Below are positions 1-29,346 of a stretch of 34,367 bases of DNA, piece after piece. The number at the start of each line of letters is the position of its first letter. The first letter of the stretch is position 1. The position numbers were made by a program, and so were the translations under genes. The notes under the pieces were generated by a model. That model saw nothing but the letters and a program-made list of their open reading frames with translations. It was not told the DNA's origin and made no database searches. The stretch comes from Chromatiaceae bacterium (GTDB lineage: Bacteria; Pseudomonadota; Gammaproteobacteria; Chromatiales; Chromatiaceae), in NCBI GenBank assembly GCA_013426805.1, contig JACDZG010000082.1, positions 1 to 34,367 of the forward strand, given 5' to 3'.

Positions 1-289
1 TACTCAAATTATGTATATCTTTCATGACTTTAAATTTAACGAAGTAGAACTAAGGAATGGCACAATTCAGCGCGGTCAGCCTGCTCAACCAAGCCGCGCC
101 CCACTTCACTATTAACCAGATTTTACACATGGCGAGTGGGGTTTTTTGGTATCATGATCGACATGGCTGCACCCTGACGCGGTGCGCCGAAAAATGACGG
201 CTAGCGGCCGGTTGTTGTTGAATCTGTGCTTACCGCATCGTCGCAGCGCCCTATCAAGGCCGGGCCGGTGCTCTAGGGAGACAAGAACG
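1..289. other. non-coding leader upstream of the PKS operon
   Basis: No convincing gene is seen. The first 60 bases are clearly AT-rich compared with the GC-rich PKS that follows, which would suit a promoter region or the edge of an acquired segment. I could not identify a confident -35/-10 pair. A long untranslated leader is possible. Confidence 0.4.
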
Positions 290-382
290 ATGATCACCTT
301 CAACGTGACGGACGGGCGTCGTCTACGCAATGCCGGGATGGACCGGTCCGTGGGGAGCTGGAATCAGGGAGTCACTCGATGA
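290..382 (+). CDS. possible 30-aa leader peptide overlapping the PKS start
   Basis: A 30-codon reading frame starts at ATG 290 behind a good Shine-Dalgarno (AGGGAG, 275-280, nine bases before the start). Its TGA overlaps the PKS ATG in an ATGA arrangement at 379-382, a typical layout for translational coupling. The peptide begins MITFNVTDGRR and ends GVTR. It has no recognisable domain, no signal peptide and no run of one amino acid that would suggest attenuation. It could be a real leader that passes ribosomes to the giant PKS gene, or a chance ORF. The PKS also has its own Shine-Dalgarno inside this frame. Confidence 0.35.
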   Translation: MITFNVTDGRRLRNAGMDRSVGSWNQGVTR

Positions 383-3300
383 GCCGGAAGCAAGTTGCCA
401 TCGTCGGCATGGCGTTCCGACTGCCTGGCACGACTCCGGATCGCTTCTGGTCCGACCTGCTGGCGGGGCGCAATCTGGTCACGGAGGTCGCCGCCGACCG
501 CTGGGCACAGGAATCGTATTGGCACCCGCGCAAGTCGCATCCCGGCACGAGCTACACCTTTGCCGCCGGCTCCATTGGCGATGTCTATGCGTTCGACGCC
601 GGCTTCTTCGGCATCTCGCCGCGCGAGGCCGCCCAGACCGATCCGCAACAACGCCTGCTGCTCGAGCTCGCCTGGGAGGCGCTGGAGAACGCCGGCATTC
701 GTCCGTCCGCCGTGCGCGGCAGCCAGTGCGGCGTTTATATCGGCATTGCCGCCGTCGACTATGCGTTCCGCTTCGCGGACAATCTCGTCGCCATCGATTC
801 CTCGGTCGCCACCGGCACGTCTAACAGCATCGCCGCGAACCGCATCTCGTACGCATTCGACCTGCGCGGGCCCAGCATCGCGGTCGATACCGCGTGCTCG
901 TCCTCGCTCGTCGCGTTCCACCTCGCCTGTCGCTCGATCGTCACCGGCGAAAGCACGCACGCGCTCGCCGGCGGGGTGTCGGTGCATACCCACCCCTACG
1001 GCTTCATTGCCTTCTCGAAGGCGTCGATGCTTTCCAGGCGCGGCGCCTGTAGCGTGTTCGATGCCGCTGGCGACGGCTACGTGCGTTCCGAAGGCGCGGG
1101 TCTGTTCTACCTCAAGGATTACGACTTGGCAATGGCCGACGGCGACCGCATCCTGGCCGTCGTCGCGGGTTCGGCGATCAACGCCGATGGCCGTAAGTCC
1201 GGCCTCACGGTGCCGAGCGCGCAGGCCCAGGCCGCGCTCTTGACCAAGACCTATGCGGAGGCCGGCATCGATCCTGCCGCGATCGACTACCTCGAGGCGC
1301 ACGGCACCGGCACCGCGGTCGGCGACCCGGTGGAAACCCAGGCGCTGGGCGAAGCACTGGGCTGCCGCCGTCCGCGCGGCAATCCGCTGCTCATCGGCTC
1401 CGTCAAGAGCAATACCGGTCACCTCGAGGCGGCCTCCGGTGTCGCGGGCTTGGTCAAGGCCGTGCATTGTATCCAGCACCGCCTCGTTCCGGCGACGATC
1501 CACCTCGACAACCCGAATCCCAGTATCCACTTCGACGAGTGGAACATCCGCGCCGTCACCGCCGCGGTTGCGCTCAAACCCGCGGGCCGCGTTATCGTCG
1601 GGGTCAACTCGTTCGGCTTCGGCGGTGCCAACGCGCACGTCATTCTGGCGAGTCCCGAGCCCCAAGCGCGGGCGGCCGAGCATGTCCCTGTAAACGCGAC
1701 GCTACCTCTGGTGGTGTCCGGCAAGAGCGCCGACGCGCTGAAAGACGCGGCGCGCGACCTCGCGGGATTTCTGCGCCGCGATCACCCTGCGCCCTTCTAC
1801 GACGTGGCGTGGAGCGCTGCATTCCACCACGATTGGCATGAGCACCGCGCCGTGGTGCTCGCCGACAATGCCCAAGCGGCCGCGCAGTCGCTTGATGCAT
1901 TCGCCGAGGGCGTCACTGCCGCAGGTCGGATGGAGTGCGGGGTCGCGCTCGCCCAGCCCACCGCGCTCGCCTTCGTCTATTCCGGCAATGGCGCGCAGTG
2001 GGAAGGGATGGGACGACGCTTGCTCGCCCAAGAACCCCTGTTTCGGGACGCGGTGCGGGCGGTGGACGCAATTTTTCGTCCGCTCGCGGGCTTTTCGCTC
2101 GAGGCCGAGTTGGCCGGCGGGAACGGCAGCGGCCGCTATGAGTACACCGAGGTTGCGCAGCCGGCACTCTTCGCGATGCAAGTGGGCATCACCGAAGTGC
2201 TGCGCAGCCGCGGCGTCGAACCTGTGGCGGTGACCGGCCACAGCGTCGGGGAGGTCGCGGCCGCTTGGGCGGCGGGCGCGCTGACGCTCGAGCAGGCCGT
2301 GCGGGTCATTTATCACCGCAGCAAGCTGCAGGGCATGACCAAGGGCTGCGGGCAGATGACCGCTGTCGCGCTCGGCGAGAACGCCATTGCCGAGCTGATC
2401 GAATCGCTCAACCTCGCGTGCGCGCTCACCGTCGCCGGCATCAACAGCTCGGACAGCGTGACCGTCGCGGGCGAGACGCCGGCGCTGGATCGGCTCGAAG
2501 TTGCGCTGGGGCAGCGCGACCTGTCCTATAAGCGACTCGATCTCGATTACGCCTTCCATAGCCCGGCCATGGATTCGCTGGAAGCAGGCATCCTGGAGGC
2601 GCTCGGCGATTTGCGCCCCGGCGCCGCCGTGGTCGCCTTCCATTCCGCGGTCACCGGGGAACAGCTCGACGGCACCGCGCTCGGCCCCGCGTACTGGTGG
2701 CGCAATATCCGCGAACCGGTGTGCTTCGAGAAAGCAATCAAGAGCATCCTGGCGGACGGGGTGACGGCATTCGTCGAAGTGGGGCCGCATGCGCTGCTGC
2801 GCCGCTACCTGGTGAGCTGTATGCATGACGCCGGCGTGCAGGGCCAGGTCGTGCCGACCGTGCTGCGCGACGACGACGCGTCCGAGCGCCTGTGGAGCGC
2901 GCTATGCCAAGTGATGATCGTCGGCGCGTCGATCGACTGGAGCAAGTTCTTTCCCGTGCGCGGCGCGTTCGTGCAGTTGCCGAACTACGCGTGGCAGCGC
3001 GAGCGCCATTTGCACACACTCTCGCCGGAGTCCGGCCTCCATCGCCACCGGGAGCACCCGCTGCTCGGCTACCGCCTGCACGAGATCGAATGGGCGTGGG
3101 AAAACCAGATCGATACCCAGCTCAATCCCAGCTTCGCGGATCATGTCATCGGCGACGCCATCGTGATGCCGGGCACCGCATTCGCCGAGATGGCGCTGGC
3201 GGCGGCGCGCCTGTGGCACGGCGGCGATCAAGTCGAGCTCGAACAGCTCGAAATCCGCTCGCCGCTCGTGCTTGCGGAGTCGCAATCGAAAGTCGTGCGC

Positions 3301-6300
3301 TTCATTATCGACCCCACGGACGGCGGCTTCACGATCCGCAGCCGCGACCACGGGACGGAAGAGGCGTGGACGCTGCACGCGACCGGCCGTATCATCGAAG
3401 AACCGCACGACATCCTGGGGCCGCAGGCGCTGCTCACCCTGCCGACGCGTCCGGCCGATACGAACGGCGATGCGCACCGGATGCTTACCGGCGCCGTCGG
3501 GCTCGATTACGGTCCGGCCTTCCGCGCGCTCGAGTCGATCTGGGTCGAGGACGGCTCGGTCTGCGCGACCTTCCATATTCCGCACGCGATCGAGTCGGAA
3601 CTCGCCGCGTTCGACCTGCATCCAGCCCTGCTCGACTGCGCGTTCCAGCTCATCATCCAACTCCTGAAAGAGGACTACCTTACGCAGTCCGGCGCGGTCT
3701 ACGTGCCCGCCAAGATCGTCGGCCTGCATTTTCGCACCGGCAAGGGGACGCCGCACAGCGCACGCGCGACGCTGTTGAAGTGCAGCCCGTACTCGATCAC
3801 GGCGGCGTTCACGCTCTACGACGCGGACGGTGAGCGGCTCGCGTGGATCCGCGAGGCGCGCTTCAGCAGCATCCGGCTCCGCAAGAACCCGGCCGACCGC
3901 CTGCGCTATATCGATTACCACTGCATCCCGCACCCGCACCCGCTGGAGTCCGCCGCCGCACCCCACCGGTTATTCGATCAGTTGCACGCGCAGCTCACCG
4001 ACGTGGCCCAGTTGGCCGTGAGGAACGGCACGCTGCAGCGCTACACCGCCGAAATCGAGCCGCTGCTCGATACGCTGTGCGGCCGCTTCGCCGCCGACGC
4101 GCTGAAGGCGCTGGCTGCCGACGGCCAGGTGCTGCGGCAGGCAGACGTGGCGGCCTGCGCCAACGCCGACCCGGAGACGGCGGGGCTCCTCGCGCGCCTG
4201 ATCGGCATCGCGCAGGAAGACAAGGCGATGACGTCAGCGGGCCAGGAATGGCACTTCGCAGCGGATGAGGATCAGCCTTCGGCTCAGGATATCTGGAACG
4301 GTCTCATTGCGGATTATCCGGATTTCCTGCCGGTGCTCCACGGTGTCGGGCGGGTGGGCATGCATCTCGCCGACCTGCTGCGCGGCCGCTGTCGTCTGGA
4401 GCAACTGTTGCCGCGTGAGTGCACGCCGAGCCGCCTGATGCGCCTCCTGCTTGCGGAAGCAGGCCTGTCCGCGATCGTGCACGCGCTCCAGGATCTCGTC
4501 CCGCACAGTCTCGCGCAACTGCCGACGGGCAAGCGTTTGCGCATCGTCGAGATCGGCGCGGGTAGTCCGACATTCGCGGCCAACCTGTGCAAGGCCCTGG
4601 ACTTCGACCGCTGCGACTACGTTTTCGCGACGACGGTGCCGGGGACCGCCGAGGACTGCCATCCTCTGCTGGAAGCTTTTCCCGGCGTGGAAGTGCGCCA
4701 AGTCGGGGTTGATGCGCCTGACGCGGGAGTGATTCCGCCGAACGAGCAATTCCATCTCGCGCTGGTGACCGCGGACTTCGCGACCGGGCAGGAAGCCGCC
4801 GTTGCGCTCGCCTGGGTGAAGCGGCGGCTGGCCGCCAGCGGTGCCGTACTCGTCGTCGAGCAGCATCCGTCGCGTTGGTTGGACCTGGTTTTCGGCGGGC
4901 GGCGCGACTGGTGGACCGATGCGTCCGGCAGCCACTGGAGCTCCCACTACAGACCCGCGGCTTTCCGGCTCAAACAGATGCAGACACACGGCTACCAATC
5001 CGCTGCCGTGCTCGAGCTGTCCGCGGACGGTGGCTCGGGTCCGTACCTGCTGCTCGCGCAGGAGACCGACCATGCCGGTACCGTTTCACCTGCGGCTGCG
5101 GCAGCCGCGCGGACCTGGGTACTGCTGACCGACCAGGAGGGATTCGCGGCGCGGTTTACAGACGCGATGACGCGTACCCTGGAGGCCTGCGGCGACCGCG
5201 TCGTGCAGGTCACGCCGGGCCGCCGGCACCAGCGCCTCGCCGGCGATTCCGGCGGCGACTCAATGAACGCCTTCGATGAGGGCCAGCTCGAAAGTCTGTT
5301 CCGGGAGCTCGGCCCGGCGGGTCAGGTTGCCGGCATCCTGCATCTTCACGGCCTGCGCGCACCTTCGCGGAACGCCACCCCAACGCTGCTCCTCGAACAG
5401 CAGATCGACCGCTGTGTGTCGGCCGCGACCGTCACGAAGGTGTGCGCAGCGGCCGGCACCCGTTCGACCCTGTGGCTCGTCACGGCACGCGCCACGACGG
5501 TGGATCTGTCCGCGGAGGTCAACCTTGCCGCAGGCACGGACGCCGCGCTGTGGGGGTTCGGCCGCACACTCATGAATGAGGCATCCGACCTGTCGGTACG
5601 CCTCGTGGACATCGACGCCGCTGCGGCCCTCGATACCATCGTCGCCACGCTGGCGCGGGAGATCGCTCACCCGGACGCCGAGCAGGAGATCATACTGACG
5701 GCCTCCGGCGACCGCTACGTGCCGCGGCTGCGTGTCGAGCCGGCGGCATCCCGCCCGCCCGCACCACACGCGGCCGCCGACGCCGCGACGCTGCGCCTCG
5801 GGCTGCAGTTTCCGGGACAGCTTCGCAACCTGCGCTGGGAGCTACACCCGCGTACGCGGCCCGGGTCTGACGAGCTGGAAGTCGCGGTGCATGCGACCGG
5901 CCTCAACTTCCGGGACGTCATGTATGCGCTCGGGCTGTTGACTGACGAAGTGATCGAAGGCGGCTTCGCAGGCCCTACGCTGGGTCTCGAGTTTGCAGGT
6001 GTCGTGACCGGCATTGGCCCTCAGGTGCGCGGCTTCGCCCTGGGCGACCGCGTCGTCGGCTTCGGGCCGATGAGCTTCGCCACCCGCGTCGTGACGCGGG
6101 CGGTCTGCGTCTCCCCAATACCCGCCGACATGTCGTTCGAGGCCGCGGCGACGATCCCCAGTACCTTTTTCACCGTTTACTACTCCCTGAACCATCTTGC
6201 GCGCCTGGCGGAAGGCGAGAAAATTCTGATCCACGGCGCTGCGGGCGGCGTCGGCATCGCCGCGATTCAGGTGGCGAAACACTGTGGCGCCGAGATCTTC

Positions 6301-8046
6301 GCCACCGCCGGTTCCGACGAGAAGCGCGACTTCCTGCGCCTGTTGGGCGTCCCTCATGTGCTTGACTCACGCTCGCTCGCCTACGCCGACGCGATCCTCG
6401 CGATCACCGAAGGCAAGGGCGTCGACGTTGTGCTCAACTCGCTCGCGGGTGAGGCGATCAACCGCAACCTGCGCGTGCTGAAACCGTTCGGTCGCTTTCT
6501 CGAACTGGGCAAGCGTGACTTCCAGGAAAACACGCGCATTGGCCTGCGTCCGTTCCGCAACAACATCAGCTACTTCGGCATCGACGCGGACCAGTTGATG
6601 AAGGAGCGCCCGGATCTTACCGCACAGATCTTCCGCGAGATGATCGGGCTATTCAACGAGGGCGTGCTGCATCCGCTGCCCTATCGTTGCTTCGAGGCTG
6701 GGCAGGTCGTCGACGCATTCCGCCACATGCAGCAATCGCGTCAGATCGGCAAGATCGTCGTGACCTACCGCGACGGCGTCCAGCCTACGCACGGCGGCCA
6801 GTCCGAGCGCGGCAGGCTCGAACTGCCGGCCGACGCGACCTATCTCGTGACCGGCGGGCTCTCCGGTTTCGGGCTGAAGACGGCCCAGTGGCTGGCCGCC
6901 CGCGGCGCTTCCAACTTGGTGCTGGTGAGCCGCAGCGGGCCGGTGACCGACGAGGCGCGCGCGGGCATCGCGCAGCTCGAGGCGGCCGGGGTGAGCGTGC
7001 GCGCCGCCGCGTGCGACATCACGGATCGTGAGGCGCTGGCTGCACTGCTGTCCGCGATCGCGGTCGTCATGCCGCCACTGCGGGGCATCGTGCACGCGGC
7101 CGCCGTCTACGAGGACGGGCTGGCGCGCAACCTCACCCGCGAGCAGATCCGCCGGGTGCTCGCGCCCAAGATGCTTGGCGCCTATTATCTGCACCAATTG
7201 ACGCTGACCATGGATCTCGATCTGTTCATCCTGTTCTCGTCGGCGACCACGCTGTTTGGCAACCCGGGGCAGGGCAACTACGTCGCGGCCAACGCGGCGA
7301 TCGAGGCGCTCGCCGCTTCCCGCCGCGCGGCGCGGTTGCCGGCATTGTGTGTGCGCTGGGGTGCGATTGACGACGCTGGCTATCTCGCGCGCAACACTCA
7401 GATCAAAGAGGCGTTGCAGAACCGCATGGGCGGCGCGGCGATTCCGTCCGCGGTCGCACTCGACGCGCTCGAGGATCTGGTGCTGGCCGACCGCTCCGGT
7501 CTGGGCGTCATGGAACTCGATTGGCGCGCGCTGAGCCGCTTCCTGCCGACGGCGCGCTCGCCGAAGTTCAGCGATCTGGCTCAAGGCGTGGACGACATCG
7601 CGGTGGATGAGGACAGCAGCGGAGACCTGCGCCGCATGGTGGCCACGCTGCCTGCCCAAGCGCTCGAAGCCGCGGTCGCCGACCTGCTCAAGAAGGAAGT
7701 CGGCGACATTCTGCGCATCGCGCCGGACAAAATCGACGAAAACCGCTCGCTATACGACATGGGCTTCGACTCGCTGATGGGTGTGGAGCTGGCCACGGCG
7801 GTCGAAGCGCGCTTCACGGTCCGCCTGCCGGTCATGGCGATCAGCGAGAGCCCGACGGTGGCGAAGCTGTCCGCACGCATCCTAGCCCAACTGACCAGTA
7901 CGGACCAGGAAGGGGACGAACTGGACGATCACATGCGGCAGGTCGCGACGCGATACGCCGATGACGAACATGCCGAAACCTACGCGAAAGTTGCCGAAGA
8001 GCTGCGCTCCGGCGGGTTGACGACCACCACCCGGATGATTCAGTGA
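379..8046 (+). CDS. highly reducing type I polyketide synthase (KS-AT-DH-MT-ER-KR-ACP)
   Basis: This 2555-aa single-module PKS carries every reducing domain, so it probably acts iteratively to build a largely saturated chain. The ketosynthase (about 5-430) has Cys173 in DTACSSSL and His308 and His348 (EAHGTG, NTGHLEAA). The acyltransferase (about 530-830) has Ser622 in GHSVGE. Its YAFHS at 724 is intermediate between malonyl and methylmalonyl signatures. The dehydratase (about 890-1180) keeps His922 and Asp1086. A methyltransferase-like region spans about 1210-1560 (EIGAGS at 1391). A structural KR half, an enoylreductase (about 1800-2130, HGAAGGVG at 1952), a ketoreductase (about 2150-2340, Tyr2301) and an ACP (Ser2465 in GFDSL) follow. 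There is no thioesterase, so release must be done in trans, most likely by the adjacent AOS. AGGGAG at 366-371 supports the ATG. The domain order equals that known for fungal Fum1. Confidence 0.95.
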   Translation: MSRKQVAIVGMAFRLPGTTPDRFWSDLLAGRNLVTEVAADRWAQESYWHPRKSHPGTSYTFAAGSIGDVYAFDAGFFGISPREAAQTDPQQRLLLELAWEALENAGIRPSAVRGSQCGVYIGIAAVDYAFRFADNLVAIDSSVATGTSNSIAANRISYAFDLRGPSIAVDTACSSSLVAFHLACRSIVTGESTHALAGGVSVHTHPYGFIAFSKASMLSRRGACSVFDAAGDGYVRSEGAGLFYLKDYDLAMADGDRILAVVAGSAINADGRKSGLTVPSAQAQAALLTKTYAEAGIDPAAIDYLEAHGTGTAVGDPVETQALGEALGCRRPRGNPLLIGSVKSNTGHLEAASGVAGLVKAVHCIQHRLVPATIHLDNPNPSIHFDEWNIRAVTAAVALKPAGRVIVGVNSFGFGGANAHVILASPEPQARAAEHVPVNATLPLVVSGKSADALKDAARDLAGFLRRDHPAPFYDVAWSAAFHHDWHEHRAVVLADNAQAAAQSLDAFAEGVTAAGRMECGVALAQPTALAFVYSGNGAQWEGMGRRLLAQEPLFRDAVRAVDAIFRPLAGFSLEAELAGGNGSGRYEYTEVAQPALFAMQVGITEVLRSRGVEPVAVTGHSVGEVAAAWAAGALTLEQAVRVIYHRSKLQGMTKGCGQMTAVALGENAIAELIESLNLACALTVAGINSSDSVTVAGETPALDRLEVALGQRDLSYKRLDLDYAFHSPAMDSLEAGILEALGDLRPGAAVVAFHSAVTGEQLDGTALGPAYWWRNIREPVCFEKAIKSILADGVTAFVEVGPHALLRRYLVSCMHDAGVQGQVVPTVLRDDDASERLWSALCQVMIVGASIDWSKFFPVRGAFVQLPNYAWQRERHLHTLSPESGLHRHREHPLLGYRLHEIEWAWENQIDTQLNPSFADHVIGDAIVMPGTAFAEMALAAARLWHGGDQVELEQLEIRSPLVLAESQSKVVRFIIDPTDGGFTIRSRDHGTEEAWTLHATGRIIEEPHDILGPQALLTLPTRPADTNGDAHRMLTGAVGLDYGPAFRALESIWVEDGSVCATFHIPHAIESELAAFDLHPALLDCAFQLIIQLLKEDYLTQSGAVYVPAKIVGLHFRTGKGTPHSARATLLKCSPYSITAAFTLYDADGERLAWIREARFSSIRLRKNPADRLRYIDYHCIPHPHPLESAAAPHRLFDQLHAQLTDVAQLAVRNGTLQRYTAEIEPLLDTLCGRFAADALKALAADGQVLRQADVAACANADPETAGLLARLIGIAQEDKAMTSAGQEWHFAADEDQPSAQDIWNGLIADYPDFLPVLHGVGRVGMHLADLLRGRCRLEQLLPRECTPSRLMRLLLAEAGLSAIVHALQDLVPHSLAQLPTGKRLRIVEIGAGSPTFAANLCKALDFDRCDYVFATTVPGTAEDCHPLLEAFPGVEVRQVGVDAPDAGVIPPNEQFHLALVTADFATGQEAAVALAWVKRRLAASGAVLVVEQHPSRWLDLVFGGRRDWWTDASGSHWSSHYRPAAFRLKQMQTHGYQSAAVLELSADGGSGPYLLLAQETDHAGTVSPAAAAAARTWVLLTDQEGFAARFTDAMTRTLEACGDRVVQVTPGRRHQRLAGDSGGDSMNAFDEGQLESLFRELGPAGQVAGILHLHGLRAPSRNATPTLLLEQQIDRCVSAATVTKVCAAAGTRSTLWLVTARATTVDLSAEVNLAAGTDAALWGFGRTLMNEASDLSVRLVDIDAAAALDTIVATLAREIAHPDAEQEIILTASGDRYVPRLRVEPAASRPPAPHAAADAATLRLGLQFPGQLRNLRWELHPRTRPGSDELEVAVHATGLNFRDVMYALGLLTDEVIEGGFAGPTLGLEFAGVVTGIGPQVRGFALGDRVVGFGPMSFATRVVTRAVCVSPIPADMSFEAAATIPSTFFTVYYSLNHLARLAEGEKILIHGAAGGVGIAAIQVAKHCGAEIFATAGSDEKRDFLRLLGVPHVLDSRSLAYADAILAITEGKGVDVVLNSLAGEAINRNLRVLKPFGRFLELGKRDFQENTRIGLRPFRNNISYFGIDADQLMKERPDLTAQIFREMIGLFNEGVLHPLPYRCFEAGQVVDAFRHMQQSRQIGKIVVTYRDGVQPTHGGQSERGRLELPADATYLVTGGLSGFGLKTAQWLAARGASNLVLVSRSGPVTDEARAGIAQLEAAGVSVRAAACDITDREALAALLSAIAVVMPPLRGIVHAAAVYEDGLARNLTREQIRRVLAPKMLGAYYLHQLTLTMDLDLFILFSSATTLFGNPGQGNYVAANAAIEALAASRRAARLPALCVRWGAIDDAGYLARNTQIKEALQNRMGGAAIPSAVALDALEDLVLADRSGLGVMELDWRALSRFLPTARSPKFSDLAQGVDDIAVDEDSSGDLRRMVATLPAQALEAAVADLLKKEVGDILRIAPDKIDENRSLYDMGFDSLMGVELATAVEARFTVRLPVMAISESPTVAKLSARILAQLTSTDQEGDELDDHMRQVATRYADDEHAETYAKVAEELRSGGLTTTTRMIQ

Positions 8047-8070
8047 AGCCGGTTTTAAGACTCGAGTTTC

Positions 8071-9483
8071 ATGCCGCGTCATGCGGACGCCGCAATGCTC
8101 TTGGAACTTGCCACTCGGAGCTTGCATCGAATGACTCATAGAAGTTCACGCGGCTATAACCCACAGATGAAGGAGCGCCTGATCCAGCAGGCGCTCGAGC
8201 GTCGACAGCGCCGTGTCGACACGCCGGAGATGCCACCCGTGCCGGTCGCGGCCGAGGTCCGCGCACCCGCCGATATCCCGGCGCGAAAATACCGCTTTCA
8301 CCTCCATCCCGGTTATGTACAACTGCGTCTCATCATCGACGGTTCAGCGAAGCTCGGCATCGCCAACCCCTACTTCAAGGTGCACGACGGTATCGCCGGC
8401 GTAACCACCTGCATCGGCGGTAAGGACTACCTCAACTACGCGAGCTACAACTATCTGGGATACTGCGGCGACCCGCGCGTCAGCGACGCCGCGAAGACGG
8501 CTATCGACCGCTGCGGCACTTCAGTCTCGGCAAGCCGGCTCGTATCAGGCGAGCGCGGTGTGCACCGGGAACTCGAACGCGCGCTGGCGCAAACCTACGG
8601 TGTGGACGACGCCATTACTTTCGTCAGCGGGCACGCCACCAACGTCACGGTCATCGGCTATTTATTCGGTCCCAAAGACCTGATCCTGCACGACACGCTC
8701 GTGCACAACAGCGTCCTGCAGGGAATTCAGCTGTCGGGCGCGCATCGCCTGCCTTTCCCGCACAACGATTGGGCCGCACTCGAGGCGATCCTCACCGCGC
8801 AGCGGCACCAATTCGAGCGCGTGCTGATCGTCGTCGAGGGCATCTTCAGCATGGACGGGGATTACCCCGACTTGCCTCGCTTCATCGAGCTGAAGCGCCG
8901 ACACGGCGCCTTCCTGATGGTGGACGAGGCCCACTCGTTCGGTGTGATGGGACCGACGGGACTCGGTATCCGTGAGCATTTCGGGCTCGCGGGCTCCGAC
9001 GTGGATATCTGGATGGGCACCCTTTCCAAAACGCTGGCGAGCTGCGGCGGCTACATCGCCGGCGAGACCGCACTGATCGAGCACCTCAAATTTCTCACGC
9101 CGGGTTTTCTATACAGCGTCGGCATGACACCGCCGACGGCCGCCTCCGCGCTCGCCGCGCTGCAGTTGATGCGTCAAGAGCCGGAAAGGGTCGCGGCACT
9201 GCAGGCGTGCGGCATTCTCTTTCGCGATGAAGCGCGCGCGGCGGGCATCGACACCGGCTTCAGCACGGGACTAGCCGTCGTCCCGGCGCTTACCGGCAGT
9301 TCAGTCAAGGCGCTGAAGCTCTCACATGCGCTGCTTGAGCGCGGCATCCATGTGCAACCCATCCTCTACCCGGCAGTCCCTGAAAAGGCCGCGCGACTGC
9401 GCTTCTTCATGAACTGTGAACATACGGAACAGCAGATCCACGACACGGTGCGGGCGCTGAAGGAAGAATCGGCCCGCGTCTGA
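8071..9483 (+). CDS. PLP-dependent alpha-oxoamine synthase (polyketide-releasing aminotransferase family)
   Basis: This is a fold-type I PLP enzyme of the group that includes serine palmitoyltransferase, KBL, BioF and ALAS. These enzymes condense an acyl thioester with an amino acid and lose CO2. Counting from ATG 8071, the PLP lysine is Lys320 in GTLSKTL, and Asp285 and His288 lie in DEAHSFG. The core is continuous from about residue 73 to 465. It begins 24 bases after the PKS stop on the same strand, and the PKS lacks a thioesterase, so it probably offloads the ACP-bound chain as an alpha-amino ketone. The start is uncertain: ATGs at 8131 and 8167 would shorten the poorly conserved N-terminus, and none has a strong ribosome binding site. 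The amino acid substrate (Gly, Ala or Ser) cannot be read from the sequence. Confidence 0.92.
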   Translation: MPRHADAAMLLELATRSLHRMTHRSSRGYNPQMKERLIQQALERRQRRVDTPEMPPVPVAAEVRAPADIPARKYRFHLHPGYVQLRLIIDGSAKLGIANPYFKVHDGIAGVTTCIGGKDYLNYASYNYLGYCGDPRVSDAAKTAIDRCGTSVSASRLVSGERGVHRELERALAQTYGVDDAITFVSGHATNVTVIGYLFGPKDLILHDTLVHNSVLQGIQLSGAHRLPFPHNDWAALEAILTAQRHQFERVLIVVEGIFSMDGDYPDLPRFIELKRRHGAFLMVDEAHSFGVMGPTGLGIREHFGLAGSDVDIWMGTLSKTLASCGGYIAGETALIEHLKFLTPGFLYSVGMTPPTAASALAALQLMRQEPERVAALQACGILFRDEARAAGIDTGFSTGLAVVPALTGSSVKALKLSHALLERGIHVQPILYPAVPEKAARLRFFMNCEHTEQQIHDTVRALKEESARV

Positions 9484-9572: not shown

Positions 9573-10307
9573 TCATTTCCACGGCAGGGAACGGTAATAA
9601 TACTGCTCTGCGACGACATCCGGATCGCTGATCATTTGGACGAAGGGAATGAGCTCGAGGTCGTCCACGGCGAGATCGCCGAAAAATGGATGGCGATACA
9701 GCAGGCCGACGTCGCCGTCGCCGCCGGCGAGCTGATTCTCCTGCACACGGGCGCGGAAGATGCAGTCGCTGGAATAGATCGGTTGGTTCCCGGTAAATGC
9801 CTGAATCAGCCGCTCTTGCGGCTCGGTGGAATATTCTTTGTACTCCGCGCAGGACTTCAGTGAGGCGATGGGTCCGCGCTCGTTCGCGAGCGCGATCTGC
9901 AATTTCTCGCGGTCGACCGACACCTTGGTAAGCAGGGTATGGGCGGGCAACTTATAATACTCGCGGCTATGCTCCAAATGCAGCTCGCAGGTGCTGGCGA
10001 GCGAAACCACGTACATCGCAAAATTGGGTACGTTGCGCGAAAGATCGGGCGTCACGCCAACGCTTAAAATCAACTCCTGAAACTCGGGCAAGAGCCCGTC
10101 TAAACCGCCGGCGCGGAAATTCACCGCCGTCAAGTTGATCAGCCCGATGCCGGGGATTGCCTCGGCCAGGGTTAAATTGCCGTCCGGCAGCAGCGGCAGC
10201 AGTGCTTGCAGTTCGCATCCGTAAAATGTCGAGATCGAGAAGTCGTAGTTCCAGATGATCCGATCGTTTTGTTCGGGCTGTCGGTGCCCACGGGGGATTT
10301 CGTTCAT
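9573..10307 (-). CDS. acetoacetate decarboxylase-like (ADC fold) protein
   Basis: This 244-aa protein has no signal peptide. The central stretch (MYVVSLAST, then REYYKLP, then GPIASL) aligns by eye with the ADC-superfamily core, where a substrate-facing strand is followed by a REIWGYPK-like segment. True ADC uses a Schiff-base lysine; whether a matching one exists here cannot be settled by eye, so it may be a non-decarboxylating homologue. An ATG at 10325 is also in frame, three bases after the upstream stop. I prefer 10307 because GAGGT lies seven bases before it. It is the second gene of a two-gene operon with the VOC protein and converges on the AOS. A role in tailoring a beta-keto or amino-ketone polyketide product is inferred from position only. 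Confidence 0.55.
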   Translation of the reverse strand: MNEIPRGHRQPEQNDRIIWNYDFSISTFYGCELQALLPLLPDGNLTLAEAIPGIGLINLTAVNFRAGGLDGLLPEFQELILSVGVTPDLSRNVPNFAMYVVSLASTCELHLEHSREYYKLPAHTLLTKVSVDREKLQIALANERGPIASLKSCAEYKEYSTEPQERLIQAFTGNQPIYSSDCIFRARVQENQLAGGDGDVGLLYRHPFFGDLAVDDLELIPFVQMISDPDVVAEQYYYRSLPWK

Positions 10308-10328
10308 CGCGCTGACCTCGGTCATGAT

Positions 10329-11354
10329 TTACACTGTGTGGCGCCGTTTCTTTAGCGACGGCCCGGTGCTTGCCATAAGCACCAAGTCCGTCTTGAATGT
10401 TTGCATTGCGTCGACGATTGCAAAATCGGCTCCGCCGGCATCTTTCCCTTGGTGCAGCAGTCGGCAGCCTAACTCCACACAGCGGCCGACGGTCGCGTCG
10501 ATCGTGCCTGCCGTGCTCAGAACCACGGCTTGCTTATTCGCGGAGTTGCCTGGCCATGGCAGCGACGAAGCGACAAAACCGAGCGAAAATCCTTTGACCT
10601 TAGCGCAAACGGACGTGTCACTCGAGCCGCCTTCCCCGTTCCAGGGGAGGTCGCTCGTCCATTGCGTGAGGCCAAGATTCCGCTGCAGGAACCGCTGGGT
10701 GTCGGCTGGTCTGTCGGCGGCGACCGCGATGCCGGACAGGCCTATCGCCAGCGTGCTGCGAATGCCCTTGGGACTCTTGTAGCGCAGTCCGTCGGCGGCA
10801 AAATAATAATCGGCGCGGCCGAGGTCGATCGCCATGTCATGGGTCGACGGCAGCATCGGGGCCGAGATCTCGAGGTTCAGCGGCAGCTCCGGGGTTCTGC
10901 TCAAGTATGCCAAATTGAGACCCATGGACGAGATACGCGGGATCGTGACCGGACCCAGCTTGACGGGGACGACGATTTCGGCCTGCAGTTTTGGGTTGCA
11001 GCCGATGCCGGTAAACCGTTCGAGGTTGCTGCGGAACGACGCCCCGGTTTCCACGCGGAGATGGTCGATCCCGATGGAATTAATACAGTGGCGATCGGTG
11101 CCGAACTGTCCGCCGTGCCAAATCTGCACGACCTCGATGCTCATCCTGCCGATGCGGGCGATGCCGAGCTTCATGCACCATGCGGCGGGAGCGCCGTTGA
11201 TCCTGGTAGCGACAAGATTGGGATAAACGAAGTCCCAGCATTTGAACGCCGCTATTCCGAGCAGGCGCGCCATGCGCGGGACTGTGTCGTCGAAGTGGTC
11301 GGTCCCGATGCATACCTGATCGATTTTGGTGATAACCGGTTTAACGGGCTCCAT
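10329..11354 (-). CDS. VOC-superfamily (glyoxalase/dioxygenase-like) protein with two modules
   Basis: This 341-aa protein looks like two VOC units joined. The N-terminal unit (about 8-110) starts ITKIDQVCIGT, has the RLLGI helix end and closes with SIEVVQIWHG, a typical VOC strand with the acidic metal-ligand position. The C-terminal unit (about 200-332) has a second IAVAADRPADTQRFL entry and ends with VGRCVELGCRLL and a TDLVLM strand. VOC enzymes perform metal-assisted isomerisation, epimerisation, lyase or dioxygenase chemistry; the reaction here is unknown. The stop is followed after three bases by a possible start of the ADC-like gene, so the two are co-transcribed. The start has only a weak ribosome binding site. 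It probably belongs to the adjacent polyketide locus, but it could be independent. Confidence 0.65.
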   Translation of the reverse strand: MEPVKPVITKIDQVCIGTDHFDDTVPRMARLLGIAAFKCWDFVYPNLVATRINGAPAAWCMKLGIARIGRMSIEVVQIWHGGQFGTDRHCINSIGIDHLRVETGASFRSNLERFTGIGCNPKLQAEIVVPVKLGPVTIPRISSMGLNLAYLSRTPELPLNLEISAPMLPSTHDMAIDLGRADYYFAADGLRYKSPKGIRSTLAIGLSGIAVAADRPADTQRFLQRNLGLTQWTSDLPWNGEGGSSDTSVCAKVKGFSLGFVASSLPWPGNSANKQAVVLSTAGTIDATVGRCVELGCRLLHQGKDAGGADFAIVDAMQTFKTDLVLMASTGPSLKKRRHTV

Positions 11355-11852
11355 TGATATCGTCCGGCGATTAGGAATGTACGGCCGCTCGCGGCGGCGA
11401 GCGGAGTGATTGAGAGCGTCGGCGCCGCGCCGGCCGATTGTGCACCGGCAGAGCCGGTCCGCATGGCGCGCGCAACCACCCCGATCGAGGCCGCTGTGAA
11501 CCGATCGGGGTCGAGATGGAAAAGCCTACACTGAACATTATCCTATATCCCACGTCTGGTGTTTGGCAAGCGGTTTATTATCAACTTTTTATTGATTTGA
11601 TCCTCGTTCCGGTCACCTGACCAAGACCCTCACCGTCATGGACGGCCGGTAGCCGAGGCGGTAGAATCGCAACGCTTTTCGTAATAGGCTAAGTTGTATG
11701 GGAGAGAAGGGGATGGCAGCGAGCGCTGAGCAGCGGCGCGGGCGCGCCGCACGGATAAACCGGTGCGTCAAGCGGCCTGGGTGTTGGCTGCGCGCGCGAG
11801 CGGGTTTCGCGAGGCGCCGACTTGGCGTTCGTCGCGTGCGGACGATGACGCG
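11355..11852. other. divergent intergenic region between the VOC operon and the RND operon
   Basis: About 500 bases hold no supported gene and must contain promoters in both directions. An AT-richer patch lies at about 11,520-11,605. Reading the minus strand there, TTGCCA followed 18 bases later by TAGGAT is a weak candidate promoter for the VOC/ADC-like operon. On the plus strand TAGAAT near 11,661 could be a -10 element for the RND operon, with only a poor -35. Two small inverted repeats occur: a 6-bp stem at 11,444-11,458 and the 9-bp one listed separately. Confidence 0.4.
11479..11510. promoter_or_regulatory. 9-bp perfect inverted repeat, possible operator
   Basis: The arms CCCCGATCG (11479-11487) and CGATCGGGG (11502-11510) are separated by 14 bases. 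The site lies between two divergent operons, about 125 bases upstream of the VOC gene. The spacing would suit a dimeric regulator, or it could be a hairpin in a leader RNA. No T-run follows on the plus strand, so a terminator is less likely. Confidence 0.3.
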
Positions 11853-14231
11853 ATGAGTCGCTATCTCGATCTCCTGCTGCGGCTGCGCTGGGTCATCATC
11901 GTACTGTGGCTGCTCACGGTCGCGGCGTCGGCTTGGGCTTATGTGAGCCATTTCCGGATCGACAACTCGGTCGGCATCTGGTTCGTTTCAAACGATCCGG
12001 CCTTGCAGACCTATCGTGAGCACAACCGCACGTTCGGCGAGACCGAATGGACCTTCGCGCTGGTCGAGGCCGACGCGATTTATGATCCGGAGTTTTTGCA
12101 CGAGCTGTCCGAAGCGGTGCGCCGCATCGAGTCGCTGGCGCATGTGGAGCGGGTGGTCTCGATCGTCAATGCCCGCGACAGCGAACTGGATGCCGAGGAC
12201 ACCTTGTCTTATCTGCCGCTCCTCAAGCAGGCGGGTGCACGGGCGAGCGCGTCGGAGAGCGCGGCGTTGCGCGCCCGACTCGAAGACAGTCCCATCTTCG
12301 TGCGGAATTTGATCCAGCCCGGCGACACCCGACACACCGCGGTGCTGATTCAAAACGAGAACCGGCTGTTCGAGCAAACCGCTTACCGTATGCGGCTGGT
12401 GGATGCCGTACGCGCCATCCTGGCCGAGTACCCGACGATCCGCTCGGTTGCGCTGGCGGGCAATACCGCGATCAATGCCGAGCTCAATCGGGCGGCACTG
12501 CGCGACATTGTAGTCTATAACACGCTGATCTCGCTGGTGCTGGTGCTCAGCGGTTATCTGTTCCTGAGGCACCTGCGCGACATCGCGATCTTGCTCGCGG
12601 TCGTGGTCGGATCGGTGGTGCCGGTCGTCGGCGTTGTGGGCGCGCTCGATATTCCGGTCAATATCGTGACTGCGATGTTGCCGGTCGTGCTGGTGACGAT
12701 CAGCGCGTCGGCAGTCATTCATCTGATCAACGAGTTTCATCATCAGCGGTGCGCAGGGCAGGATCGCGAAGCGCTTGCCGGTATTCTGCGGCGCCTGTTT
12801 TGGCCATCGTTTTTTACGACCCTGACAACCGTCGTGGGATTCCTGTCGTTTGCGTTCAGCGACGTCATCCCGCTGCGGCAGCTTGGCTTTACGGCAGCGC
12901 CCGGGGTCGCGTTCTCCTGGCTGCAGATGCTCGTGACTGCGCCGGTGCTGCTGCGGCTGCTGTGGTCGGGCGAGGAGCGCCGCCGTTCGCCTCCGTCGCG
13001 CTGGATCCGGTCCATGACGCATGGCGCGGTCTATCTCGTGGAGCGCCGCCCGGCGGTCATTCTGATCGTTGCGGCCTGCCTGTCGGCGACCCTGACCGGG
13101 TTGCCGCGTCTGCAGGTCGACACCGATTATGTTGAGCTGTTTCGTGAAGGCAGCGGGATGCGGGTCGACTACGACCGCATCGCGGCGGCGCATTTTCCCC
13201 AATATTACGTGTCGGTTGCCCTGCGCTTCGGACCAGGCCGCAGCCTGACCGATGTCCCGGAGTTGGCCCAAACGCTGGATTTCGAGCATGCGGTCGCGGC
13301 GCTGCCGGAGGTACGCAAGGTACTCAGTGCCGCACAGATCCTGCGGGAGGCCGACCGCGCGCTCGCCGGGGTGCGCGCGCCGACCGAGCGGTTTGCGCAG
13401 TTCGGCGCCGACCGTCTGGGTCAGCTCGTGCTGCTCGTCCAGGCGAGCGGCAACGCGGACCTGACCGATCTGCTCGTCGGCGATCGGGGCGAGACCCGGC
13501 TGCTGGTCATGACGGACCATCTGTCGATGCGCGGACTCGCAGCGCTGCGCGAACGTATCGAGGAACTCGCGCGCACCCTGTTGCCGGTCGATGTGCAAGT
13601 CGCGGTGACCGGCACCAATGTGCTGTGGGCGAATATGGACGCCCATGTGACCTCCACCCAGATCGTCTCGGTGGCGATCGTGTTGGCCGCCATTGCGCTG
13701 CTGCTGCCGCTGTTGTTCCGGTCGCTGACGCTCGGCCTGCTCGGCGTGTTCGTCAGCTTCATGCCGATACTGTTCGTGCTCGGCCTGATGGGTTGGCTGG
13801 GAATCAAGATCAATATCGCGACTTGTATCGTCGGCGGCGTTGCGCTCGGGCTCGCCGTGGACGATACGATCTATTTCCTCTACCGCGTCACGCGTGAGAT
13901 GCCGCGGCGGCGCAACCCGCGCCGGGTGGTGCGCGACGCGATGCTGGTGACGGGCGGCGCCATGGTGACGACGTCGCTCTTATTGATGGGCGGATTCTTG
14001 ACGATGAGCGTGTCGAGCTTCCTGCCGAGCGCCCATTTTGGAATCCTGTTTGCTGCCACCGTGCTCTTCGCGCTGGTCGGCGACATGCTGATGCTGCCGC
14101 TGCTGATCCTTCGGCTGCCCGTGAGATGGCGGCTGGACGGGGACGCGGGGCAGGAGACCGTCCACACCCGTGGCGCGAGATCCACCGATGCCGCCGACAC
14201 CGGCAGCCGGCTCGACGCCCCTTCGACTTAA
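11853..14231 (+). CDS. RND/MMPL-family lipid exporter, inner membrane
   Basis: This is a 792-aa, 12-TM transporter in the HpnN/MMPL branch of the RND superfamily, which moves lipids and other hydrophobic molecules towards the outer membrane using proton flux. TM1 begins after a short cytoplasmic tail (LRWVIIVLW). A large periplasmic loop, TM2-6, TM7, a second periplasmic loop and TM8-12 follow. TM10 carries GLAVDDTIYFLYR with Asp670 and Asp671, the expected proton-relay acids. An upstream in-frame GTG at 11763 adds 30 Arg/Ala-rich residues that do not look native, so ATG 11853 is preferred, although its ribosome binding site is weak. It is the first gene of an operon with a LolA-like protein and an outer-membrane barrel, a combination known in gammaproteobacteria (MMPL with LolA-like/DUF1329 and DUF1302-like proteins). 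Confidence 0.88.
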   Translation: MSRYLDLLLRLRWVIIVLWLLTVAASAWAYVSHFRIDNSVGIWFVSNDPALQTYREHNRTFGETEWTFALVEADAIYDPEFLHELSEAVRRIESLAHVERVVSIVNARDSELDAEDTLSYLPLLKQAGARASASESAALRARLEDSPIFVRNLIQPGDTRHTAVLIQNENRLFEQTAYRMRLVDAVRAILAEYPTIRSVALAGNTAINAELNRAALRDIVVYNTLISLVLVLSGYLFLRHLRDIAILLAVVVGSVVPVVGVVGALDIPVNIVTAMLPVVLVTISASAVIHLINEFHHQRCAGQDREALAGILRRLFWPSFFTTLTTVVGFLSFAFSDVIPLRQLGFTAAPGVAFSWLQMLVTAPVLLRLLWSGEERRRSPPSRWIRSMTHGAVYLVERRPAVILIVAACLSATLTGLPRLQVDTDYVELFREGSGMRVDYDRIAAAHFPQYYVSVALRFGPGRSLTDVPELAQTLDFEHAVAALPEVRKVLSAAQILREADRALAGVRAPTERFAQFGADRLGQLVLLVQASGNADLTDLLVGDRGETRLLVMTDHLSMRGLAALRERIEELARTLLPVDVQVAVTGTNVLWANMDAHVTSTQIVSVAIVLAAIALLLPLLFRSLTLGLLGVFVSFMPILFVLGLMGWLGIKINIATCIVGGVALGLAVDDTIYFLYRVTREMPRRRNPRRVVRDAMLVTGGAMVTTSLLLMGGFLTMSVSSFLPSAHFGILFAATVLFALVGDMLMLPLLILRLPVRWRLDGDAGQETVHTRGARSTDAADTGSRLDAPST

Positions 14232-14242
14232 AGGAGCATTCG

Positions 14243-15046
14243 ATGCGCCGTTCGGTGAAATTGACGATCGGTCTACTGGCATTGGCACTCGGCTGGCCGG
14301 TGGGCGCCGGCGCGGACCGGAATGCCGACCGCGGAGCGGAGATCTTCTCTGCCCGCGACCGGCTGGACGAGGGGTTCGGCGATCAACGCGTGAGTATGCA
14401 GCTGACGCTACGCTCTGCGAACGGCCGCACGGCCGAGCGCCGCACCCGCATGCAGTTGCTGGAGGGACCGCCCGGCCAGGGCGACAAGACGCTCGTGGTC
14501 TTCGATGCCCCGCCAGATATCGCAGGTACCGCACTGCTGACGCACGAGGCGCTGGGGGCGGCCGACGATTCCCAATGGCTGTATTTGCCGGCGTACAAGC
14601 GGGTCAAGCGCATTGCGGCGCGTGACCGCTCGGGGAGCTTCGCCGGCACCGAGTTTAGCTACGAGGATCTGGCCGGCGACAAGTTCGAGGATTTCACCTA
14701 TCGTTTCGTCGGAGAGGCCAGCCTGCGTGGTCAGCAGGTCTACCGCGTGGACCGCATGCCGATCGCTCCCAACTCCGAATACAGTCGGCAGGAGACCTGG
14801 GTCGATCCGGATACGCATCAGATCCTGCAAGCCTATTTGTACGACAAGAAAGGGCGGCACCTCAAGACGCTGGAGACCGGCGATTGGGTGCGCTATCGCG
14901 GCAACTACTGGCGTCCGCGCACCCTCGCGATGACCCATGTGCCGAGCGGCCGCGCGACGCTTCTCAAGACCTCGGAGTATGAGTTCGGCGTCGGGTTGAA
15001 AGAGAAGGATTTTTCGCCCGAGGCCCTGTCCGGGCTTGGGCGCTGA
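14243..15046 (+). CDS. outer membrane lipoprotein-sorting (LolA-like) periplasmic protein
   Basis: The 267-aa precursor has a clear Sec signal peptide (MRRSVKLTIG, hydrophobic core, probable cleavage after GAGA at about residue 24). The mature part fits the LolA-like family that accompanies MMPL transporters. It has a lipid-cupping half-barrel with LYLPAYKRVKRIAA, GSFAGTEFSYEDL and a QETWVDPDTHQIL strand, and the usual ending VGLKEKDFSPEAL. The ATG is fixed by AAGGAG six bases upstream, and it starts only 11 bases after the RND stop, so the genes are co-translated. It likely carries a lipid or lipid-modified molecule across the periplasm from the RND protein to the outer-membrane component. 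The cargo is not known from sequence. Confidence 0.88.
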   Translation: MRRSVKLTIGLLALALGWPVGAGADRNADRGAEIFSARDRLDEGFGDQRVSMQLTLRSANGRTAERRTRMQLLEGPPGQGDKTLVVFDAPPDIAGTALLTHEALGAADDSQWLYLPAYKRVKRIAARDRSGSFAGTEFSYEDLAGDKFEDFTYRFVGEASLRGQQVYRVDRMPIAPNSEYSRQETWVDPDTHQILQAYLYDKKGRHLKTLETGDWVRYRGNYWRPRTLAMTHVPSGRATLLKTSEYEFGVGLKEKDFSPEALSGLGR

Positions 15047-15080
15047 GCGAGCGGGTGGGGGCACGCCGCTGTCCGCAGCG

Positions 15081-16274
15081 ATGAAGAAGGCCCGGCTGGA
15101 TACGCGATACGCACGCGCCCTGAGGTTCGCCCTGCTGGCCGGCCTCGCCGTGACGCCGGGGGCGTTCGCCGACTGGGGCGGCTGGATCGAGTTGGAGGGA
15201 CGCTGGTTTCCGGATACGCCGTTGTATCCCCCGCAATCCGATGGGGATGCATCCGTCGCCCTGCGTCCCGAGTACCGGACCCAGGCCGGCGACCTCTCCT
15301 TTGCGTTGCTTCCCTTTCTGCGGGTCGACAGCGAGGACCGGGAGCGGACCCATGCCGACTTGCGGGAGGCCAATGTCAAGTTCGATGCCTGGGGCTTGAG
15401 CTGGCTGGTGGGAATCGGCCAGGAGTCCTGGGGTGTTGCCGAGTCGTATCACCCGGTCGATATCGTCAATCAAACCGATTTCGTCGAAGACATCGCGACC
15501 GACGAGAAGCTCGGACAGCCGATGATTCAGGCCAAGCGCCTGACGGACTGGGGCACTGTGCAGCTACTCGTGCTGCCGGGTTTTCGCGAGCGCACTTTTC
15601 CCGGCGAGCACGGGCGGCTTTATCTGCCGATCGATTTCGAGCATCCGATCTACCAGTCGCCGCAGCGTGAGCGGCATGTGGACTGGGCGCTGCGTTGGGC
15701 CAAGACATTTGGGACCTGGGATCTGGGCCTTTCCTATTTCTGGGGAACCCGCCGTGATCCGCGCCTGGAGCCTGATCCCGCCAAAGGTCTCGCCTCCGTC
15801 TATTACGATCTGATCCACCAGGTCGGGTTGGACTTGCAGGGAGCCGTCGGCAATTGGACGTTCAAGCTCGAATACATCTATCGCGACACGCCGGTCCAGC
15901 GATATTCCGCCGCCGTCGCCGGCGCTGAATATACCCTCTACGGTATGGCCGATACGGCGGCGGATCTATCACTCTATGCCGAGTATACCTACAACGGCAC
16001 CGACAATACGCTGGCTACCCTCTATCAGAATGATCTATTCACCGGTGCCCGGTTCGCGTTCAACGATTTGCAGTCGACCGAGGTGCAACTTGGCGTCCTC
16101 TCGGACTTGGAGCAGGACAGCCTGCTATGGCGGCTGGAGGGATCGCGTCGACTGGGAGAGAACTGGAAGCTCAGACTGACGCTGCAGGGTTTTCCCCGCA
16201 CGGCGCCGGGCGAGCCCGCCTATTATTGGCGCAAGGATGGCTATGCGCGGCTCGAATTATTGCGCTATTTCTAG
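15081..16274 (+). CDS. outer-membrane beta-barrel protein of the RND/LolA-like operon
   Basis: The 397-aa precursor starts MKKARLDTRYARALRFALL and has a probable signal-peptidase site after GAFA (residue 30). The mature protein starts DWGGWIELEGRWF and continues as alternating amphipathic strands rich in Tyr, Trp and Phe (for example WTFKLEYIYRDT and LSLYAEYTYNGTDN). It ends in LELLRYF, with the C-terminal aromatic residue expected by the BAM machinery. It resembles the DUF1302-like porin group often linked to MMPL and LolA-like genes, but I cannot assign the exact family. It follows the LolA-like gene by 34 bases. An in-frame TTG at 15036 would overlap that gene, but ATG 15081 gives the good signal peptide. 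It is the likely outer-membrane end of the export route. Confidence 0.8.
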   Translation: MKKARLDTRYARALRFALLAGLAVTPGAFADWGGWIELEGRWFPDTPLYPPQSDGDASVALRPEYRTQAGDLSFALLPFLRVDSEDRERTHADLREANVKFDAWGLSWLVGIGQESWGVAESYHPVDIVNQTDFVEDIATDEKLGQPMIQAKRLTDWGTVQLLVLPGFRERTFPGEHGRLYLPIDFEHPIYQSPQRERHVDWALRWAKTFGTWDLGLSYFWGTRRDPRLEPDPAKGLASVYYDLIHQVGLDLQGAVGNWTFKLEYIYRDTPVQRYSAAVAGAEYTLYGMADTAADLSLYAEYTYNGTDNTLATLYQNDLFTGARFAFNDLQSTEVQLGVLSDLEQDSLLWRLEGSRRLGENWKLRLTLQGFPRTAPGEPAYYWRKDGYARLELLRYF

Positions 16275-16353
16275 CTCCACGCCCGGATCGCCGTAGCCGG
16301 CGAACGGGCGCAGCGTCTCCTGACCGGCGCTCTTGACCGCCGGCGTCCCCGCC

Positions 16354-19607: not shown

Positions 19608-19613
19608 GCCCCT

Positions 19614-20630: not shown

Positions 20631-20637
20631 CCGAGCC

Positions 20638-29342: not shown

Positions 29343-29346
29343 TTTT

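Follow-up and report, generated by a model that had tools for sequence, protein, structure and literature searches.

A polyketide synthase and alpha-oxoamine synthase gene pair of probable SgaAB type in a Chromatiaceae genome, its probable horizontal gain and a tentative tie to capsule loci

What is made by a one-module reducing polyketide synthase (PKS) that is followed directly by an alpha-oxoamine synthase (AOS), and how did such a pair reach a purple sulfur bacterium? The question is raised by two genes at the left end of contig JACDZG010000082.1 of a Chromatiaceae bacterium (assembly GCA_013426805.1). The window analyzed here is this entire contig of 34,367 bp, and the genes 5' of the PKS lie beyond its edge. 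The source genome comprises 7.6 Mb in 349 contigs, and the host is most likely a Thiodictyon species (purple sulfur bacteria, Chromatiaceae). A preliminary description, made from the sequence alone, had read the two genes as a bacterial Fum1/Fum8-like pair; it was right on the chemistry and wrong on rarity and fungal kinship. The pair very probably is a PKS/AOS of the already known SgaAB kind (WcbR-WcbT, RkpA-RkpG). It most likely makes a long-chain keto-sphinganine, with iteration, serine and product class assigned by analogy to PfSgaAB of Pseudomonas fluorescens MYb115.

Both open reading frames (ORFs) proved to be open where the preliminary description had placed them. They share one strand, with 24 bp between them, and carry the following features:

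379..8046, + strand: predicted iterative type I PKS of probable SgaA/WcbR/RkpA type, 2555 aa (ORF, Pfam, motifs)
388..1650, + strand: KS domain, approximate limits (Pfam E 5e-83; Cys-His-His motifs DTACSSS, EAHGTGT, GHLEAA)
1972..2889, + strand: AT domain (Pfam 1e-72; motifs GHSVGE, YAFH)
3055..3873, + strand: DH domain (Pfam; motifs HVIGDAIVMPG, HPALLDCAFQ)
4066..5028, + strand: pseudo-C-methyltransferase, approximate limits (homologous to the CurJ MT; motifs lost)
5812..6765, + strand: ER domain (Pfam; motif HGAAGGVG)
6835..7371, + strand: KR domain (Pfam 1.5e-60; motifs GGLSGFG, S..Y..N)
7684..7881, + strand: ACP domain (Pfam 3.5e-14; motif GFDSL)
8071..9483, + strand: AOS of probable SgaB/WcbT/RkpG type, 470 aa (Pfam aminotransferase class I/II)
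9028..9030, + strand: codon of the pyridoxal phosphate (PLP) lysine K320, in GTLSK (invariant in 21/21 aligned AOSs)

All catalytic motifs tested in KS, AT, DH, ER, KR and ACP are present, and Pfam found no thioesterase in the PKS or after the ACP. The AT motif GHSVGE...YAFH is presumably of the malonyl type. The order KS-AT-DH-MT-ER-KR-ACP proposed earlier therefore stood with its other domains intact, but the MT proved to be a dead remnant. At E<=10, Pfam matched no methyltransferase between DH and ER, whereas a free-standing methyltransferase of the same window, serving as control, scored 1.4e-13 in that search. A 29-sequence profile, window included, retrieved C-methyltransferases from the PDB: CurJ (1.1e-48), the citrinin PKS (7e-23), DisA and LovB. 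We aligned 44 PKSs, window included, from the 48 related loci described below minus L031 (on the same contig as L099), L048, L049 and L086. The S-adenosylmethionine (SAM) motif ExGxGxG is kept in none of the 44, and the position aligned with the His that we take to be catalytic in CurJ-type enzymes is His in three and Ala in the window. Judged from these alignments, the region is a C-methyltransferase by descent and now a pseudo-methyltransferase; the chain should therefore be unbranched. An active methyltransferase was rejected, with the Pfam match missing, the SAM motif gone and the catalytic His replaced by Ala.

The PLP lysine of the adjoining AOS was confirmed as intact. Translation probably starts at 8131, because homologues begin near residue 21, where an ATG sits. 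The first ~100 residues, with a KxxLIQQALERR-like helix, recur in most of 13 aligned PKS-linked AOSs, and this region was not found in the aligned BioF, Kbl and ALAS sequences; a docking role for it is a guess.

We then asked whether the AOS is a housekeeping enzyme. Eleven NCBIfam models match it, including BioF, Kbl, ALAS, three serine palmitoyltransferase (SPT) and CqsA-type models, and none does so at its cut-off. The bit scores against the cut-offs were 335/426 for bioF, 293/460 and 242/493 for Kbl, 226/339 for ALAS, and 294/640, 262/500 and 193/670 for SPT. Six of the eight outgroup controls passed a cut-off: two ALAS, two Kbl, BioF L113 and the SPT L120, with 625 bits against 500. The other two, BioF L117 (380 bits) and the Bacteroides plasmid protein L116, failed; five of the six annotated BioF, Kbl and ALAS controls were thus above the cut-off, with L117 below. 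We also built a maximum-likelihood tree of 86 rows, in which a 100/100 split separates 69 AOSs, PKS-linked or close to these, from the remaining 17 (BioF, Kbl, ALAS, SPT and unnamed AOSs), an outgroup that is small and contains long branches; the fragment L003 from the window's own genome was too short and was dropped. A housekeeping BioF, Kbl, ALAS or SPT was rejected by the cut-offs together with the tree split, and the grouping with Kbl or BioF for which the preliminary description had suggested a tree was not found. The window AOS falls in a 30-row set (100/99) with sequences from Alcaligenaceae, Accumulibacter, Desulfobacteraceae and a Pseudomonas plasmid. Among plasmid-borne AOSs, the nearest is a Pseudomonas protein that shares 63-65% identity with the window's.

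Among 47 solved AOS sequences at E<=1e-20, SphA, which we take to be fungal, was the second weakest, with 91 bits vs 217 for SPT. The best solved relative of the PKS is mycocerosic acid synthase with 946 bits, vs 526 for lovastatin nonaketide synthase. Kinship with the fungal PKS/AOS was rejected on these scores; the Fum1/Fum8 likeness survives as one of architecture.

The function of the pair can be approached through PfSgaA (PKS) and PfSgaB (AOS). According to the parts of Peters et al. (2025; PMC12134224) available to us, the two make C24, C26 and C28 sphinganines and also, most likely, phosphoglycerol sphingolipids. Deleting either gene abolishes the C24-C28 sphinganines, labelled serine is incorporated, and PfSgaB joins acyl-CoA to L-serine but scarcely to Ala or Gly, which makes it an SPT by assay (PMC12134224). 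The earlier phrase "outside the normal SPT route" should therefore be used with caution. The same source counts 6101 homologous clusters, dominantly in Burkholderia, which contradicts the view that such pairs are uncommon in bacteria.

By analogy, the PKS would work iteratively, adding malonyl units that are fully reduced, until a long acyl chain without branches is bound to the ACP. The AOS, with a PLP-bound amino acid, most likely L-serine, would attack the acyl-ACP thioester. CO2 would be lost, and the AOS, in place of a thioesterase, would free a long-chain 3-keto-sphinganine, that is, an alpha-amino ketone; the release step and the product class (a long-chain alpha-amino ketone or sphingoid base) predicted earlier are both supported at this level. 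In some relatives, the ketone could next be reduced by a KDSR-like short-chain dehydrogenase/reductase (SDR), after which an LTA-synthase-like enzyme might attach phosphoglycerol. A secondary metabolism of the fumonisin or vitroprocine type would instead give a branched chain joined to alanine or an aromatic amino acid. Its domain order is the same on paper, and fumonisin is made with an active MT and alanine; here, however, the MT is dead, the nearest assayed relative is nearly strict for serine and SphA is distant, and we consider this outcome very improbable.

We gathered 48 related loci with patterns from the window AOS, a sample skewed to Alcaligenaceae. The co-occurrence in related genomes on which the preliminary description had staked its reading was found: a PKS match of at least 600 bits lies upstream of, or is fused to, the AOS in 43 of the 48 loci. 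Three of the remaining five (L006, L019, L035) are cut by a contig end, L019 and L035 with a PKS fragment, and no PKS was seen beside the AOS in L043 and L045. PKS and AOS form one protein in Planktothrix (L086, 9605-17203) and in two Streptomyces loci (L048, 2630-12391; L049, 4316-12475), although the Streptomyces proteins match only the KS-AT part of the window PKS. Such fusions are good evidence for joint action of both parts. Among six printed PKS C-termini, RMIQ or RMIH ends four, including the window's, and is absent in the Pseudomonas plasmid and L004. Within the genus, two of the seven other genomes have such an AOS.

How the pair reached this genome was addressed by comparison with the Thiodictyon congeners. 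The remaining features of the window that bear on this are:

1..53, no strand: end of a multicopy, insertion sequence (IS)-like element at the contig edge (52-59 bp at 96-100% identity at 10 other genome sites)
9573..10325, - strand: 250-aa protein of no known family, non-syntenic part (no Pfam at E<=10; no match at E<=0.01 in 72,556 plasmids)
10329..11354, - strand: 341-aa protein with a weak glyoxalase resemblance (E 0.05), non-syntenic part
11763..14231, + strand: MMPL-family transporter, non-syntenic part (Pfam MMPL 3.5e-23)
14126..15046, + strand: LolA-like outer-membrane lipoprotein-sorting protein (PF17131, 3e-52; real start probably further in)
15036..16274, + strand: predicted outer-membrane-type protein (no Pfam family; "outer-membrane-type" by our reading of the sequence)
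16267..32075, no strand: backbone common to Thiodictyon congeners (blocks of 89-96% identity in G002; left end is the right border of the non-syntenic part)

The contig breaks right before the PKS because positions 1-53 are a repeated element end; six of its ten other copies stand at the very start of a contig in the same genome. Positions 16331-23766 match congener G006 at 93-94%, whereas the synteny comparison found no counterpart of 1-16266 at this site in G002 and G006. The former left flank, whose ORFs read to us as a hydrogenase-sensor region, is now found on contig C217 of this genome, ~2.1 kb short of its end. A mis-binned foreign contig was ruled out, as the right half is syntenic at ~95% with a congener. 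Because 1-16266 lacks a congener counterpart and ends in a repeated element at 1-53, at least 16 kb appear, barring a chimeric contig near 16267, to have entered here next to the end of a mobile element, in one or several events. The pair itself was probably gained by horizontal transfer beside the IS-like element. In the AOS tree, the congeneric copies (G001, G006) are sisters of each other just outside the 30-row set; the position of the window AOS apart from them argues for a separate gain.

The same stretch raises the question of whether the genes are in use and what else arrived with them. The pair might be a decaying passenger, carried in by the mobile element and unused, as the IS-like end at the contig edge and the partner genes not found (see below) would allow. 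Its two long ORFs are intact, however, and every tested motif is kept outside the MT, whose motifs the whole family has lost; we give this explanation a low probability. We likewise consider it unlikely that the insert encodes a self-contained route in which a free sphingoid lipid is made and then exported by the MMPL transporter, LolA-like protein and outer-membrane protein that it carries. The three putative export genes lie together with the pair in the non-syntenic part, and none of the seven congeners gave an MMPL match at E<=1e-30. The tie is one of proximity only, though: the two opposite-strand genes at 9573-11354, for which neither a Pfam family nor a plasmid homologue was found, separate the set from the pair, and tblastn of the export candidates at E<=1e-5 gave no match in the available flanks of the other loci. 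That the MMPL transporter exports the lipid is no more than a guess.

Further observations concern the same region. By eye, the product of 9573..10325 resembles an acetoacetate-decarboxylase-type fold, and that of 10329..11354 a double glyoxalase fold. A promoter and terminator scan of 9400-9700 found none. A ~200-bp repeat resembling a miniature inverted-repeat transposable element (23444-23690) has many copies in this genome and in G002 and G006. Within the Thiodictyon backbone, EtfB, EtfA and an acyl-CoA dehydrogenase, named by reading, follow one another at 18717-22359.

Returning to the pair, we examined what accompanies the pair elsewhere. Six PKS-AOS plasmid regions were inspected out of 14 plasmid records. 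Five of them, from Pseudomonas, Caballeronia, Paraburkholderia, Sinorhizobium and Shinella, place the pair in a capsule or polysaccharide-export setting. Its neighbours differ from region to region and are drawn from an SDR, a protein of the "LTA synthase family" or alkaline-phosphatase type (two were tested, and both match Pfam Sulfatase), Capsule_synth, KpsF, KdsA/KdsB and polysaccharide-export genes. The sixth region, from Planktothrix, has none of the SDR, LTA-synthase-type, capsule or export genes. In Pseudomonas TMW 2.1634, the gene order 3' of the AOS is PhyH, Capsule_synth, GNAT, LTA synthase and SDR. The AOS and SDR are five locus tags apart in the Pseudomonas plasmid (L083, 16055-23517), the same distance as between SgaB (RS19800) and SgaC (RS19775) in MYb115, and the sga cluster of that strain may hold the same genes, which would make it a capsule-type locus. 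As a separate observation, an LpxC-like deacetylase lies between PKS and AOS in the Caballeronia (L084, 14907-15833) and Paraburkholderia (L087, 15085-15999; PF03331, 7e-65) plasmids.

The available flanks of the 48 related loci contained at least one such gene (SDR, LTA-synthase-type, capsule or export) in 25 cases and a capsule-type gene in 19; the same genes were found in the flanks of none of 26 comparison AOS loci, which come from other taxa (Nitrospinae, archaea and others). At the genome level, 31 of the 43 named pair-bearing genomes contain Capsule_synth (PF05159) and 12 lack it, L019, L031, L035, L040 and L041 being left out of the 48 loci. PF05159 is wider than KpsC/KpsS and also has matches in Bacillus subtilis. 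We surveyed 369 Gammaproteobacteria, with at most four AOS candidates scored per genome and the window genome in the AOS-positive set. AOS was found in 12, Capsule_synth in 42 and both in six, that is, Capsule_synth in 6/12 AOS-positive vs 36/357 AOS-negative genomes (Fisher p 8e-4, or 5e-4 with the window genome excluded, 6/11). At a cut of E<=1e-50, chosen post hoc, the counts were 6/12 vs 9/357 (p 1e-6). Two of the six genomes with both genes share a genus, so these Fisher values overstate independence. In five of the six, both genes lie on one contig within ~10 kb. Within the Thiodictyon genus, PF05159 is found in both other AOS-positive genomes (G001, G006) and in none of five AOS-negative ones.

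The SDR and LTA synthase of some relatives would be enough, on paper, for the phosphoglycerol-sphinganine of Peters et al., and a sphinganine with a phosphoglycerol head resembles lyso-phosphatidylglycerol (lyso-PG). In the sources as far as available to us, E. coli KpsS and KpsC start and build the 3-deoxy-D-manno-oct-2-ulosonic acid (Kdo) linker of the capsule on (lyso-)PG (PMC7694667), and Sinorhizobium meliloti 1021 has a Kdo capsule with a phospholipid anchor, with rkpA among the genes affecting that capsule (PMC7902896, PMC5539429). Because of the capsule neighbourhoods, the KpsS/KpsC start on (lyso-)PG and the resemblance of phosphoglycerol-sphinganine to lyso-PG, we propose that the pathway may supply a capsule anchor.

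In its strict form, with the pair making the lipid anchor of an ABC-exported capsule here as in its relatives, phosphoglycerol-sphinganine replacing lyso-PG, this proposal is improbable. The plasmid neighbourhoods, the PF05159 counts and the E. coli and S. meliloti capsules speak for it, and the Planktothrix region, the 12 pair-bearing genomes lacking PF05159 and the window genome itself speak against it. We know of no structure of such a sphinganine capsule anchor. Searches of the window assembly (G000) for Capsule_synth, for an LTA-synthase homologue (E<=1e-10) and for a KDSR-like SDR (E<=1e-25) found none of them, with the upstream side of the pair beyond the contig edge. In congener G006, all three occur on the same contig as the pair, G001 carries the pair together with Capsule_synth but without an LTA-synthase (E<=1e-10) or SDR (E<=1e-25) match, and G026 has an AOS and an SDR without Capsule_synth.

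A looser reading seems possible to us, and we hold it tentatively. The PKS-AOS kind (SgaAB, RkpA-RkpG, WcbR-WcbT) would be a pathway of the cell envelope and not just of secondary metabolism. Joined by the SDR and LTA-synthase-like protein, it would make phosphoglycerol-sphinganine, a KpsS/KpsC-type start point for the Kdo linker of the capsule, and the window copy would be a branch cut loose from capsule, its lipid handled by the MMPL/LolA-like export set. G001, with the pair and PF05159 but neither SDR nor LTA synthase, lowered our estimate slightly. Several further points weigh against our overall account. The window AOS has many capsule-linked copies around it in the tree, yet the partner genes just listed were not found in the window assembly; the later pathway may have been lost or may be located in an assembly gap, and additional genes may be concealed in the gap from contig C217 to contig C45. 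Since no partner gene was found, the window product may stay free keto-sphinganine. The choice of serine is assigned to the window AOS by analogy, the copy could be silent, a chimeric join near 16267 may exist, and kinship to PfSgaA and SgaB was judged via the Pseudomonas plasmid stand-in rather than by direct sequence comparison.

Three observations are new. The ~16 kb around the pair, with an IS-like end, are missing at this site in two Thiodictyon congeners; AOS and Capsule_synth co-occur in Gammaproteobacteria, which suggests a capsule anchor; and the search of the window's own assembly for a partner gene was negative. With the pair, a sphingolipid route that was proven only recently would reach into a purple sulfur bacterium, apparently through interspecies transfer. 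The neighbourhoods also tie PKS-derived sphinganines to the PKS/AOS/SDR genes of capsule loci, two literatures that we have not seen joined; the texts available to us on these capsule genes do not say which lipid they make. The link between PKS-made sphinganine and a capsule anchor was not found in the open-licence PMC literature, subscription papers, including the 2009 rkp-1 paper, being outside that search, and the main text of Peters et al. (2025) mentions "capsul", "wcb", "rkp" and "LTA synthase" nowhere. If the link is true, the capsule lipid and the origin of the phosphoglycerol head group are directly testable by mass spectrometry.

Compared with known systems, the window pair shares with PfSgaAB the one-module PKS, presumably iterative here too, plus AOS and, via the plasmid stand-in, the AOS clade. 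Its PKS C-terminus is similar to that of SgaA, whose end PNRLIE we decoded from primers printed in PMC12134224; MYb115 has the KDSR homologue SgaC nearby, a kind of gene that was not found in the window genome at E<=1e-25, and the product class of the window pair is taken over from MYb115. S. meliloti RkpA/RkpG/RkpH (rkp-1, capsule) show the order PKS-AOS-SDR and an AOS 47-49% identical to the window's and likewise under the NCBIfam cut-offs, but are located among capsule genes. We take locus L085 to be rkpA/G/H. WcbT is the AOS of Burkholderia capsule clusters; WcbR/WcbT resemble the window pair by description rather than by sequence, and sit in a capsule cluster. WcbR and RkpA are handled as one PKS type or clade of capsule clusters in the part of a 2013 sponge-symbiont paper available to us (PMC3908369). 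Fungal Fum1/Fum8 and SphA share a reducing PKS released by an AOS but are distant in sequence, the AOS having been compared with SphA and not with Fum8. The vitroprocines, for which the portion of the literature at hand describes feeding experiments and, from another Vibrio, a putative SPT gene found by mining, offer an analogy only. In Rhodobacteria, canonical SPT works with a special ACP, according to the accessible part of PMC9386255. The window AOS is like canonical SPT in sequence family, PLP chemistry and its likely serine, and unlike it in taking an acyl chain from a PKS and in forming part of a separate clade.

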